Of a stretch of 5,883 nt of DNA, positions 1 through 4,812 are shown in pieces. Source of the DNA: Omnitrophica bacterium RIFCSPLOWO2_01_FULL_45_10. GTDB taxonomy: Bacteria; Omnitrophota; Gorgyraeia; 2-01-FULL-45-10. Where the stretch lies: assembly GCA_001804165.1 (NCBI GenBank), contig MHFL01000024.1:13512-19394 (forward strand), written 5' to 3'. Under the pieces are notes generated by a model that had not been told where the DNA came from, made no database searches, and worked only from the letters and a program-made list of their open reading frames with translations. The translations under genes and the position numbers were made by a program. How positions within the stretch are numbered: position 1 is the first letter of the stretch; each line of letters begins with the position of its first letter.

Positions 1-896
1 ATCGGCTCCAGATTATGCCGAGCCGCGAGTTCAAAATCTATTGGGTCATGCGCCGGCGTAACTTTTAGGGCGCCTGTCCCGAATTTCAAATCAACGATCT
101 TATCCTGAATTACCTTGAGTTCCCTTCCTAAAAGCGGCAGGGTGAGCGTCTTATCCTTTAAATATGCATATCTTTTATCTTTCGGATTTATCGCTACCGC
201 GACATCTCCGAGCATCGTCTCCGGCCGCGTGGTGGCAACGATAACATAATCCATTTTGTCTTTACTTGACCCTTCTTTTACGAGATACTTGATGTAATAC
301 AGCATCCCATCCACGTCTTTATGCTGAGATTCTTCGTCAGACAGCGCGGTCTGACAGCGCGGGCACCAGTTTACTATGTAATTTCCTTTGTAAATGAGGC
401 CCTTTTCATAGAGCCGGACAAAGACTTCCAGAACGGCCTCCGAAAGCCCTTCATCCATGGTGAACCGCGCCCTCTCCCAGTCGCAGGAGCAGCCCATTTT
501 TTTCAATTGTCTTATTATTGTTGAGCCATATTCATCTTTCCATTTCCAAACCTCCCGGACGAACCGCTCCCTGCCCAAGTCTTCTCGTCTCACTCCTTCC
601 TTCGCGAGTTTTCTCTCGACTACGTTTTGTGTCGCTATTCCGGCATGGTCCGTCCCGGGCATCCATTCCGCCTCAAACCCCCGCATCTTTTTGAAACGAA
701 TCAGTATATCTTGGATGGTGTTATTGAGGGCATGGCCCATGTGCAGGATGCCCGTTATATTGGGCGGAGGTATCACTATCGAATAGGGTTTCTTCTTAAG
801 GTTCGCATCGGCATGGAAATAGCGTTTTCCCTCCCACATCTCATATATCCTGTCCTCAACCTCACGGGGATTGTATGCCTTTGAAAGTTCGTTCAT
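1..896 (-). CDS. valS: Valyl-tRNA synthetase, N-terminal part (runs off the left edge)
   Basis: Class I aminoacyl-tRNA synthetase that charges tRNA-Val with valine in the cytoplasm and hydrolyses mischarged Thr-tRNA. Translating the minus strand from ATG at 896 gives 298 uninterrupted codons to the window edge. Visible signatures are [16 protein letters not shown] (residues 43-58, holding the HMGH form of the HIGH ATP-binding motif at 52-55), [12 protein letters not shown] (79-90), the [14 protein letters not shown] stretch (176-189), and the start of the CP1 editing domain with TTRPET (222-227) and [11 protein letters not shown] (279-289), whose His-Asp pair belongs to the editing pocket. 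The KMSKS loop and anticodon-binding domain lie outside the window. The start codon overlaps the stop of the HTH-Fic gene (ATGA), and the only upstream purine run is the A-rich end of that gene, so translation is probably coupled. No T-box leader is visible before it. Identification is firm. Confidence 0.97.
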
Positions 897-1807
897 ATTT
901 CTTTCTGTCTTTCTGTCAATATATTGTATCCTTTTAATATGCCGTCGCAAATCATCTGCACCATATTCTTAAAATATCCCATATCGCCTTTCGCGAGGGC
1001 CGTATAATATTTATGCCTATCCTCAACCTGTATTAGGATTGGCGGATAACCTTTAGATAGAAGTTGAGTCAATAAAAGAAGCCGCCCCACCCTTCCGTTC
1101 CCGTCAAAAAACGGGTGTATGCTCTCGAATTCATAATGATCCCTTGCCGCTTTTCTGACGACGTCTTTTCCATAGAGATTGATATCCTTGAGCAGTGCCT
1201 TCATCTTGAGCGGGACCACTTGAGCGGATGGCAGTTTAACTTCCGTGTCTGTGAGGTTTACGAAGCCTGTCCTGTATTTGCCGGGTAGTTTGTCGTTAAA
1301 ATTATACATCACGATGGAGTGAAGCCTCAGTATATATTCCTCGTCTATCTTAAAATTAGGATTGATATTCTCCAGTAAAAACTCGAGCGCATTTTCATGA
1401 TTCACCGCTTCGAGGATCTCAAAAAGTTCTTTGCCCCTGACCTTCCCCCCCTTAATCGCCATCTCGGTTTCTTTCAGGGTCATGCGGCTGCCCTCTATCG
1501 CGTTTGAATGATAGGTCATTTCGAGGAAGAATTTCTCTCGTATCTTCGCGCCTTCTCTCAATATGCGTATCGGGTCCTTAAAGTGGGCCTTCACATCCTC
1601 TACTATACCCATCAGGTCGACATTGTCTTTGAATAGTTCGTCTATATGACGGGAGTGGGCCGGATGCGGCTTGACGCCATTATCTATCCATCGGTATACC
1701 GTTTTGTATTCGACCTCCAGGGCCCTCGCGATTTCAGATCTCGACAATCCGGCATCATCCGCAAGCATCTTCAGTTTATCTTTATCCGTGATCTCTATCT
1801 TTTTCAT
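893..1807 (-). CDS. HTH-Fic family protein, probable self-inhibited AMP-transferase
   Basis: Predicted 304-residue Fic protein. Fic enzymes typically transfer AMP from ATP to a Ser, Thr or Tyr hydroxyl of a target protein. Residues about 19-42 ([20 protein letters not shown] region) look like an XRE/Cro-type helix-turn-helix. SNAIEG (101-106) matches the (S/T)xxxE(G/N) inhibitory motif, and because it precedes the Fic core this is a class II arrangement. The catalytic loop [12 protein letters not shown] (231-242) is complete, with catalytic His231, the acidic metal-binding residue and both arginines. The segment near KLPSAQVVP (191-199) is the likely flap. The open frame reaches a TTG at 1852, but that would translate through the operator and start next to the predicted transcription start. 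The first ATG, at 1807, is preferred although no good ribosome binding site precedes it. The stop overlaps the valS start. The Fic assignment is firm; the target and whether it acts as a toxin are unknown. Confidence 0.93.
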
Positions 1808-1826: not shown

Positions 1827-1879
1827 ATAGGACATATGGTATATAAAATCAATTATAATAAGTATACCATATGTCCTAT
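1827..1879. promoter_or_regulatory. 17-bp perfect inverted repeat, candidate operator of the fic-valS unit
   Basis: Arm 1827-1843 reads ATAGGACATATGGTATA and arm 1863-1879 is its exact reverse complement, separated by a 19-base AT-rich spacer. Arm centres are 36 bp apart, close to three and a half helical turns. The right arm fills the promoter spacer and enters the -10 box. The left arm lies in the predicted leader. The dyad axis (about 1853) falls on the predicted transcription start, so an mRNA from this promoter would carry only one arm. That favours a DNA operator over an RNA hairpin. The adjacent gene encodes an N-terminal helix-turn-helix, so autoregulation by the Fic protein is the natural inference. 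Confidence 0.75.
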
Positions 1880-1890
1880 ATAATTGTCAA
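1861..1890 (-). promoter_or_regulatory. Near-consensus sigma70-type promoter for fic-valS
   Basis: On the minus strand TTGACA (1890-1885) is a perfect -35 box, followed by an 18-base spacer and TATACT (1866-1861), a 5/6 match to the -10 box. Transcription would begin near 1854, giving a leader of about 47 bases before the ATG at 1807. One arm of the inverted repeat occupies most of the spacer and overlaps the -10 box, so a protein bound there would block RNA polymerase. Confidence 0.72.
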
Positions 1891-2207: not shown

Positions 2208-3782
2208 TTAAGCTCCTCCTCCAGAGTCTTTCAGCAATTTATACTCCACCGAATCCATAAGCGCCTGCCATGACGCGTCTATGATATTTTCGGAAACGCC
2301 TATCGTCCACCACGAATCGGTCTGGTCCTGCGACTGTATCAGGACGCGCACTTTGGCGGCCGTCCCTTCCTTTTCGTCGAGGACCCGCACCTTGTAATCG
2401 GTAAGATGCATCTTCACCAGATTAGGATAGAACTTCTCGAGCGCCTTCCTCAGCGCCCTGTCGAGCGCGTTCACAGGGCCGTCTCCGAGCGCTGCCGTAT
2501 GTTCGACCTCTTTGCCGACCCTTAATTTTATTGTCGCCTCAGATACGGTCTTTGCGCCCTTCTTCTTTTCCATGATAACCCTGAAATCCTCAAGGGCGAA
2601 GAAGTCCTTGAACTTCCTCATCACGCGTTTTATCAAAAGTTCCAAGGACGCCTCTGCCGCTTCGAAATGGTAGCCCTTGTGCTCAAGGTCCTGTAAAAGC
2701 ATTAGAATCTTTTTCGACTTTTCAGAGCTCTTGCCGAGATCGATATATAGGTCCTCGGCCTTCTTCAAAATTGTGGATTTTCCGGATAGTTCCGAGATTA
2801 AAAGGCGCCTGTGATTTCCGACACTGCGCGGATCGACATGTTCGTATGTCCTTGGGTTTTTCAATATGGCGTTCACGTGGATACCCGCCTTATGCGCGAA
2901 CGCGCTATGGCCGACAAACGGCTGTTTGTCATCCAGCCTCATATTACTTATCTCGGCAACAAACCTCGCGATCTCCGTCAGTTCCTTAAGCTCGAGGTCC
3001 GATACGCAGTCTAGCCCGAGTTTCAGTTTAAGATTCGCTATACACGAGACCAAATTGGCATTGCCGCACCTCTCGCCGTATCCGTTCATTGTCCCTTGGA
3101 CATGGACACAACCTGCCTGCACGGCGGCGATTGAATTACTGACCGCCATATCGCAGTCATTGTGGGCATGGATTCCAAGCGGCGCGCTTATCGCGGCCTT
3201 TACCTCTTCCACGATTTTAAAGACATGCGATGTTAAGGTGCCGCCGTTCGTATCGCACAGGACCACTCTCTCCGCCCCCGCGTTCTCGGCCGCCTTCAAT
3301 GTTTTGAGGGCGTAGTTTTGGTTTACCTTAAATCCGTCAAAAAAATGCTCCGCGTCGTAGAAGACCCTTTTATCTTTGGATTTTAAAAATTTGACCGACT
3401 CCTCGATCATTTTCAAATTTTCATTCAGATCGACTTTGAGGACGTCGCGGACATGTAGGTCCCAACTCTTGCCGAATATTGTGACGTATTCTGTATCGGC
3501 ATCGACAAGATATCTCAAGATCCTGTCTTTGCCCGCCGTTGAGCGGCTCTTGCGCGTGCTCCCGAACGCCACGAGTTGACTGTTCTTTAGCCGTAATCCC
3601 TTAACCTTCTTAAAGAAACTCATATCCTTGGGATTCGCGCCCGGCCACCCTCCTTCAATGAAGTGTATCCCTAGTTCGTCCAACTTCTCGCATATCTTCA
3701 ATTTATCACTGACAGAGAAGGAAATACCCTCCGCCTGCGCTCCATCGCGTAATGTTGTGTCGTATAGTTCTATTCTGGTCAT
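2208..3782 (-). CDS. cimA: (R)-citramalate synthase
   Basis: 524-residue enzyme of the LeuA/CimA group of DRE-TIM metallolyases. It condenses pyruvate with acetyl-CoA to (R)-citramalate, the first step of the threonine-independent route to 2-oxobutanoate and isoleucine. The catalytic barrel begins LYDTTLRDGAQ (residues 6-16, with Arg12 and metal ligand Asp13), followed by GGWPGANPKD (44-53), HAHND (205-209, metal-binding histidines) and CGNANL (239-244). A linker and a C-terminal LeuA-type regulatory domain (about 395-515) follow, which in relatives binds the feedback inhibitor. The opening motif with GGWPGANPKD and the total length fit citramalate synthase better than 2-isopropylmalate or homocitrate synthase. 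ATG at 3782 has AGAGG six bases upstream. It follows htpX by 28 bases and is 3 bases from the PspC gene. With lysC nearby, the unit covers branches of aspartate-family and isoleucine synthesis. Confidence 0.94.
   Translation of the reverse strand: MTRIELYDTTLRDGAQAEGISFSVSDKLKICEKLDELGIHFIEGGWPGANPKDMSFFKKVKGLRLKNSQLVAFGSTRKSRSTAGKDRILRYLVDADTEYVTIFGKSWDLHVRDVLKVDLNENLKMIEESVKFLKSKDKRVFYDAEHFFDGFKVNQNYALKTLKAAENAGAERVVLCDTNGGTLTSHVFKIVEEVKAAISAPLGIHAHNDCDMAVSNSIAAVQAGCVHVQGTMNGYGERCGNANLVSCIANLKLKLGLDCVSDLELKELTEIARFVAEISNMRLDDKQPFVGHSAFAHKAGIHVNAILKNPRTYEHVDPRSVGNHRRLLISELSGKSTILKKAEDLYIDLGKSSEKSKKILMLLQDLEHKGYHFEAAEASLELLIKRVMRKFKDFFALEDFRVIMEKKKGAKTVSEATIKLRVGKEVEHTAALGDGPVNALDRALRKALEKFYPNLVKMHLTDYKVRVLDEKEGTAAKVRVLIQSQDQTDSWWTIGVSENIIDASWQALMDSVEYKLLKDSGGGA
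2213..2222 (-). promoter_or_regulatory. Ribosome binding site of the PspC gene inside the cimA end
   Basis: The minus strand reads GGAGGAGGAG eight bases before ATG 2204. It doubles as the Gly-Gly-Gly codons ending CimA, so translation of the two genes is probably coupled. It is the strongest ribosome binding site in the window and fixes the PspC start. Confidence 0.8.
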
Positions 3783-4786: not shown

Positions 4787-4812
4787 GTAGGGCAGGTTTA
4801 AACCTGCCCTAC
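4787..4812. repeat. Perfect 26-bp palindrome, intergenic repeat copy
   Basis: Half-site GTAGGGCAGGTTT (4787-4799) is followed directly by its exact reverse complement (4800-4812), with no spacer. It lies in the lemA-htpX gap. A related, decayed copy lies at 1941-1967, so this looks like a dispersed repeat rather than a gene-specific site. No U tract follows on either strand, so a simple terminator is unlikely. As RNA it could still fold into a stable hairpin affecting lemA mRNA ends or htpX expression. Confidence 0.8.

Follow-up and report, generated by a model that had tools for sequence, protein, structure and literature searches.

A class II Fic protein of Omnitrophota with an N-terminal helix-turn-helix: likely repression of its own promoter through paired palindromic sites

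The HTH-Fic locus and its product

The window (the whole 5,883-nt stretch of contig MHFL01000024.1, from Omnitrophica bacterium RIFCSPLOWO2_01_FULL_45_10, that we analysed) carries on its minus strand a gene joining a helix-turn-helix (HTH) to a domain of the AMP-transferring Fic type, and upstream of it a promoter overlapped by a long inverted repeat. The features on which the argument depends are as follows.

893..1807, minus strand: HTH-Fic gene, 304 amino acids, ATG at 1807, a start backed by the orthologue alignment
1082..1117, minus strand: Fic catalytic motif HPFFDGNGRVGR, residues 231-242 (Pfam PF02661, E 1.7e-19), invariant in the 30 aligned sequences
1490..1507, minus strand: SNAIEG (residues 101-106), the inhibitory motif, which precedes the Fic core and does not vary among the same 30 sequences
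1622..1786, minus strand: four-helix XRE-like HTH at the N terminus, residues 8-62 (AlphaFold2 pLDDT 90)
1682..1708, minus strand: predicted recognition helix, residues 34-42 (AlphaFold2 model and covariation)
1703-1705, minus strand: K35, second residue of the predicted recognition helix, covarying with operator bases -5 and -6
1827..1844, minus strand: putative operator site S2, ATATACCATATGTCCTAT, between the predicted transcript start and the ATG
1861..1866, minus strand: -10 box TATACT, with TG at 1869-1868 giving an extended -10 that uses the operator core
1862..1879, minus strand: putative operator site S1, ATAGGACATATGGTATAC, its upstream half kept and its downstream half yielded to the -10
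1885..1890, minus strand: -35 box TTGACA (promoter match), with an 18-nt spacer to the -10

Class II Fic proteins carry an inhibitory motif, [S/T]xxxE[G/N], N-terminal to the Fic core. By its catalytic and inhibitory motifs, the window protein is a class II Fic protein. The forms TSAIEG and SARIEG of the inhibitory motif are printed in PMC10628234 and PMC9755527, and HPFFDGNGR (residues 231-239) satisfies the Fic motif HPFx[D/E]GN[G/K]R as defined in PMC2686095. The alignment in which these nine residues are invariant holds 30 sequences, 29 of them picked among the matches listed (120 of 3096).

The Fic domain is closer to that of FICD, a eukaryotic protein acting on the chaperone BiP, than to those of SoFic and CbFic2. 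The best alignments with FICD/HYPE and with Clostridium difficile Fic 0569 span mainly the Fic part, and the HTH, which lies outside them, sets the window protein apart from both. None of the 15 Pfam models matching the window protein (E up to 1) is DUF4172, and the AlphaFold2 model, which ends in a helix (residues 280-299), contains no C-terminal HTH. The N-terminal XRE-like HTH of the original prediction is supported at the level of the fold: structure comparison matches it with HigA, P22 c2 and the controller proteins of restriction-modification systems, mostly XRE-type repressors, which it resembles in predicted fold. Several of these proteins repress their own genes from palindromic operators that overlie the promoter. 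The Pfam model HTH_23 is found on the HTH in 40 of 41 members and Cro/CI-type models in 13 to 21 of the 41; the window HTH, with the domain searched alone, passes the cut-off of HTH_23 only, a generic model.

The TGA stop of the HTH-Fic gene overlaps the ATG start of the next gene in an ATGA at 893-896. This downstream gene encodes a class I aminoacyl-tRNA synthetase (Pfam), which we take to be valS. Through the overlap, translation of the synthetase may be coupled to that of fic, and its transcription may come partly from the presumed autoregulated fic promoter; in relatives, the downstream neighbours of fic are mostly different genes. On the other side, a PspC gene lies 200 bp upstream of fic in the window. 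The gene at 2208-3782, presumably 2-isopropylmalate/citramalate-synthase-like, is upstream of fic both in the window and in L009 (78% identity), so the insertion point of fic is partly common within the family. The stretch ahead of the fic start codon, 1808-1826 (TCAATTTAAACAAAATATTT), contains no clear Shine-Dalgarno sequence.

A 26-bp perfect palindrome elsewhere in the window, GTAGGGCAGGTTTAAACCTGCCCTAC, is a member of a repeat family (window positions 4787-4812 and 1953-1967). In the 1.43-Mb genome, AAACCTGCCCTAC of this family has 27 copies, often as back-to-back pairs (reversed control 0), and the family represented by the two sequences resembles a REP-type element.

The inverted repeat, the promoter and the paired sites

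The original prediction started from a 17-bp perfect inverted repeat overlapping a TTGACA-N18-TATACT promoter. The repeat is present: its arms, at 1827-1843 and 1863-1879, are 17 nt long, 100% complementary and separated by 19 nt, with their centres 36 bp apart. No repeat of 17 bp arose in shuffled DNA, the best being 13 bp in 400 dinucleotide shuffles of the whole window (gap up to 60); when the AT-rich segment 1801-1900 was shuffled 5000 times, the best was 15 bp. The promoter was re-derived with its boxes at 1890-1885 and 1866-1861; it has 11/12 box matches and is the best of six promoter-like matches in the window, such matches being no commoner there than in shuffles (6 vs 7.5). The dyad axis lies at 1853, 8 nt past the -10, and coincides with the transcription start, as had been claimed, if this predicted start sits where a sigma-70 promoter puts it. 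What had to be revised is the repeat unit. Two arms are present, but the relatives described below identify the unit as an 18-bp palindrome, ATAGGACATATGTCCTAT, which occurs twice; each window arm is, judged by its sequence, a version of it, and the core centres of S1 and S2 are 35 bp apart.

Among the 41 loci with called sites, a perfect repeat of 17 bp is found only in this genome and is the longest; the next is 15 bp (L018), and the other 39 relatives reach at most 13 bp (13 bp in three loci). In the window, S2 duplicates the degenerate, -10-like half of S1, which gives the 17-bp perfect repeat; template-switch correction of a quasi-palindrome would account for this.

At E up to 1e-30, homologues of the protein occur in 21/146 near genomes (18 close, 57-100% identity, own genome included) and in 45/384 from the whole phylum (30 with a close homologue and 15 with one at 29-42% identity); at E up to 1e-40, they occur in 11/74 (7 close) and 4/198 (all close) genomes of two other phyla. 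Searches at E up to 1e-60 found them in 7/42, 4/49 and 8/128 genomes, largely ones already seen, and contributed 2, 0 and 5 new loci (2 of the last being duplicates). De-duplication left 48 close loci (identity of 50% or more, the window among them) and 8 distant ones. Seventeen of 19 named loci are from Omnitrophota/Omnitrophica, Saganbacteria, WOR-1, Margulisiibacteriota, Elusimicrobia or simply 'bacterium', and two, both distant, are from Flavobacterium; since the Saganbacteria, WOR-1 and Margulisiibacteriota genomes were grouped as one phylum, we count three phyla in all. The distribution of the gene among relatives is patchy. Its nearest long ORFs (81 from 47 loci) are common at 70% identity or more in only three locus pairs (L032/L047 and L049/L054 on both sides; L001/L009, the window with its same-family relative, on the upstream side), which is the pattern that a gene often moving on its own would show. 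No neighbour common to the whole family, as a candidate cognate antitoxin gene, turned up among the nearest ORFs of at least 70 aa (81 ORFs, 47 loci).

Paired sites were called with a score that credits a central CATATG, a correctly spaced -10, the presence of a -35 and matching outer halves, with a cut-off of 16; both caller and cut-off were chosen after the sites had been seen, and the controls were run with the same caller. The cut-off was reached by 41/47 upstream regions of close orthologues, which come from Omnitrophota, Margulisbacteria-type and Elusimicrobia records and count that of the window among them, compared with 3/920 shuffled upstreams and 4/1500 other segments of the same loci. 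The search upstream of homologues that the original prediction had proposed therefore turns up paired sites of this kind, and relatives rarely keep the gene without it. Left out of the 41-locus statistics are L017, which has 14 bp of upstream DNA, and the six loci below the cut-off (L015, L021, L023, L035, L040 and L041). By eye, each of the six has site-like sequence in which base -5 obeys the residue-35 rule given in the next section in at least one arm; as exceptions, the first-site outer half of L023 misfits, and L015 helped to derive the rule.

The spacing between the centres of S1 and S2 is 35 bp in 22 of the 41 loci, 34 bp in 13, 33 bp in 5 and 36 bp in one. The core is exactly CATATG in 40/41 S1 and 23/41 S2 sites, and in 31/41 loci the outer halves of the two sites share at least 5 of their 6 letters. 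In 40/41 loci, a -10 agreeing with TATAAT at 5/6 positions or more falls on the inner half of S1, and a -35 with at least 5/6 matches is found in 29/41, both being matches that the caller rewards. In the K class (27 loci), S1 has the outer GGA in 26/27 and the inner TCC in 0/27, its inner half being the -10, while S2 has the outer TCC in 24/27 and the inner GGA in 16/27; each window arm therefore consists of one conserved and one degenerate half of the palindrome. Among the S2 sites, 4/41 form a perfect palindrome of 18 bp. In 9/41 loci (L014, L022, L032, L036, L047, L090, L093, L101 and L103), a third half-site matching at 7/9 letters or more is found 33-34 bp upstream of S1; 20 control offsets gave none. 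This third half-site is absent from the window, and where present it suggests an operator array with a period of about 35 bp.

In the 384 genomes of the phylum, the strict pattern RACATATG-N26-30-CATATGTY was found in 19, directly upstream of the HTH-Fic gene in 17 and elsewhere in two (G306 and G385); its reversed control was found in none. The pair is thus a companion of this gene and not a repeat of unrelated loci, which would have told against the original prediction. Put differently, 17/30 close-orthologue genomes have the pattern upstream of HTH-Fic, and 2 of the other 354 have it at all (Fisher p 1e-19). In the remaining 13/30, inspection by eye finds that the second site is weak, that a half-site is a variant (TGGC or TTAC, for example) or that sequence is missing. 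A looser pattern, GACATATG-N20-36-ATGTC, matched 118/384 genomes and was replaced by the strict one. A search of 26 genomes for the 14-bp palindrome at 2 mismatches was likewise too loose, the control matching about as often in many genomes; among the matches listed, the five exact 14-bp palindromes all adjoin an HTH-Fic gene.

The window's own genome (assembly 86.7% complete) has the strict paired pattern once and no other copy of the arm at 0-1 mismatches. A wider regulon or a mobile repeat was rejected on the count at up to 3 mismatches, 5 genome matches for the arm vs 13 for the reversed control; two of the five are the arms themselves and the rest are single sites with 2-3 mismatches.

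Residue 35 and the operator bases

Residue 35 covaries with two bases of the operator across the 41 loci. At base -5 of S1, G accompanies K in 28/28 and R in 6/6, A accompanies M, N or Q in 5/5, and T accompanies V in 2/2; at base -6, G accompanies K in 26/28 and T accompanies R in 5/6 as well as the other residues. Base -5 of S2 follows the same rule for K (G in 27/28), R (G in 5/6), M (A in 2/2) and V (T in 2/2), and runs counter to it in the N and Q proteins (G in 3/3) and in one K and one R protein (A in each); at base -6 of S2, G accompanies K in 25/28. Pairings of K/R with G, N/Q with A and hydrophobic residues with T are chemically usual protein-DNA contacts.

By mutual information, raw or shuffle-corrected, column 35 leads the 260 variable columns at S1 -5, where it fixes the base completely (0.81 of 0.81 bits), and at base -6 of either site; at S2 -5 it comes second to column 23, which likewise belongs to the HTH. 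Ranked by z-score, it leads at -6 in both arms, while at S1 -5 it is second and at S2 -5 it is fourth. The column ahead of it at S1 -5 is Y178, outside the HTH (10.4 vs 10.2), a score that comes from two proteins and goes with a mutual information of 0.28 vs 0.81.

On a tree built from the Fic part, with the HTH columns left out, residue 35 changed at least 10 times. Independent pairs on this tree agree in 5/5 cases for K/R vs G at S1 -5 and in about 4/5 for K vs G at -6, with none opposed; for K/R vs G at S2 -5, about 2 agree, 0.2 are opposed and 2.8 are uninformative. As five pairs cannot reach p below 0.05, we regard the tree as support rather than proof.

The rule was written down before the upstream DNA of six further loci was inspected, and it was right at S1 -5 in all six (misses: T instead of A at S1 -4 in L093, and S2 -5 in L090 and L093). 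For five later loci (seven minus the duplicates L151 and L152), the rule was fixed beforehand, without locus-by-locus predictions, and was right at -5 of both sites in 5/5; here the misses were G instead of T at S1 -6, and also S2 -6, in L154 (which has a YREV helix), S2 -4 in L149 and S2 -6 in L155. L099, named in advance for the prediction set, was merged with a duplicate row and left out. Few of these 11 loci discriminate, because 8 have the frequent K-type helix and L093 (Q) is alone in testing -5 outside K/R. Taken together, the covariation of residue 35 with the operator suggests that the ligand of the sites is the Fic protein itself.

Autorepression, its alternatives and related Fic proteins

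That HTH domains on Fic proteins control fic expression was reportedly proposed by Kinch and colleagues. The suggestion dates from 2009 (PMC2686095), and CccR of Yersinia pseudotuberculosis, a class II Fic protein with a C-terminal HTH, has since been shown to repress its own promoter (PMC9755527). CccR binds AGATAATCAT-N26-ATGATAATCT, 10-bp arms 26 bp apart near the -35/-10 boxes; a dimer-interface mutant failed to restore repression, and the protein is a T6SS effector whose regulatory and toxic activities are, in the authors' view, independent (PMC9755527). Its HTH is described as winged and accompanied by an N-terminal DUF4172 domain (PMC10628234). For CbFic2 of Coxiella burnetii, DNA binding was proposed to switch AMPylation to deAMPylation, in assays on random DNA with the operator undefined, and DNA binding by SoFic is stated there as undemonstrated (PMC10628234). 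A 2026 review cites CccR for an autoregulatory role (PMC12894286). In the openly licensed PMC literature, we found no demonstrated HTH-Fic autorepressor other than CccR and no paper linking Omnitrophota with Fic.

The window family resembles CccR in being a class II Fic protein fused to an HTH, with a long-spaced inverted repeat at its own promoter and, here, predicted autorepression. It differs in that its HTH is N-terminal and XRE-like, whereas that of CccR is C-terminal and winged and comes with DUF4172, and in that its arms each derive from a palindrome of other sequence, whereas those of CccR are plain 10-bp arms. CbFic2 and SoFic are likewise class II Fic proteins with an HTH, but theirs is C-terminal and winged. 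By analogy, then, the family looks to work like CccR while standing outside the CccR/SoFic architecture, having neither DUF4172 nor a C-terminal HTH.

We suggest, with a probability of roughly 0.86, that this class II Fic protein represses its own promoter, its HTH binding two copies of ATAGGACATATGTCCTAT about 35 bp apart over the -10 and the predicted start. The claim that the Fic enzyme is also the repressor of its own gene draws its support from the paired sites (41/47), the covariation at residue 35 and the XRE-like fold, and we infer the repressive sense from the placement of the sites and from the precedent of CccR. Each palindrome would accommodate a single HTH dimer. The stronger site would be S2, with both halves kept in over half of the K-class relatives, and S1, whose inner half is lost to the -10 box, would be filled with help from S2; occupancy of S1 would cover the -10 and the spacer and that of S2 the transcript start, RNA polymerase would be blocked, and transcription would drop as the HTH-Fic protein builds up. 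The sites are about 3.3 helical turns apart and thus on different faces of the DNA, so any cooperative contact would have to be made via the Fic part or DNA bending. Gene and operator would travel as a self-contained unit, without a common antitoxin gene, and the protein would therefore control its own dosage.

In place of one dimer per palindrome, a single dimer could bridge the two sites, a rival reading to be taken seriously. The protein would be the same autorepressor, but one Fic dimer with wide-set HTHs would grip both outer half-sites (AGGACAT ... ATGTCCT), as proposed for CccR; we judge this possible without favouring it. It would account well for the outer halves being the best kept (S1 GGA 26/27 and S2 TCC 24/27 vs 0/27 and 16/27 for the inner ones), and from GACATATG to CATATGTC the window sites span 45 bp, near the 46-nt footprint of CccR (PMC9755527). 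However, 16/27 for the inner GGA of S2 is far above the expectation for an unneeded half, four S2 sites are perfect palindromes, and the third half-sites 33-34 bp upstream of S1 are a better fit to repeated dimer sites.

The remaining alternatives concern the ligand, the sign of control and the nature of the repeat. That the sites are targeted by another, trans-acting regulator, with the HTH of the Fic protein doing something else, would suit the match of the window HTH to a generic Pfam model only, but it is improbable, since the sites accompany the gene across phyla among mostly unrelated neighbours and covary with a residue of the protein's own recognition helix. Proteins bound over the -10/spacer or over initially transcribed DNA normally block polymerase. 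The sites by themselves do not give the sign of control, and the protein could activate its promoter, or both activate and repress it; with S1 on the -10 and spacer, S2 on initially transcribed DNA, and boxes of at least 5/6 (40/41 for the -10, 29/41 for the -35) that leave no obvious need for an activator, we consider this a shade less probable still. Least probable of all is that the inverted repeat acts as RNA (a hairpin or attenuator) or is a mobile element, as a 17-bp perfect repeat with a 19-nt loop and the presence of another repeated palindrome family in the genome might suggest: arm 1 lies within the promoter and ahead of the predicted start, which leaves it out of the predicted RNA and led us to reject a hairpin, the arm (at 0-1 mismatches) and the paired pattern are confined to this place in the genome as assembled, and the relatives keep the sites yet have shorter perfect repeats.

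Autorepression through the paired palindromes would make this what looks to be a second, differently built Fic family besides CccR, with an operator readable from comparative sequence, an N-terminal XRE-like HTH, a FICD-like Fic domain and a different operator. The comparison also points to the protein residue that probably reads each base, and a guess about mostly uncultured bacteria becomes cheaply testable. The matched protein-operator pairs form a natural series for the study of how repressor and operator change together, and would be useful for asking whether DNA binding sets the state of the Fic enzyme. More speculatively, and with slightly less conviction than we grant the bridging dimer, we picture a one-gene, self-limiting module of toxin-antitoxin kind in which one protein would serve as both enzyme and repressor: its dimer would be quiet while bound to DNA, and release would turn the gene on and free active Fic. 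Such a module would spread between phyla together with its operator, operator and helix changing by a simple code in which residue 35 as K/R goes with G, as M/N/Q with A and as V with T.

The eight distant loci (30-42% identity) were inspected by eye only. L024 (42% identity) has TATACCATATGGTATA and L025 (30% identity) has TGTTATATAATATGTTATATA, in each case inside a TTGACA promoter, and with such palindromic or repeated AT-rich promoter sequence this mode of control may extend to distant HTH-Fic homologues.
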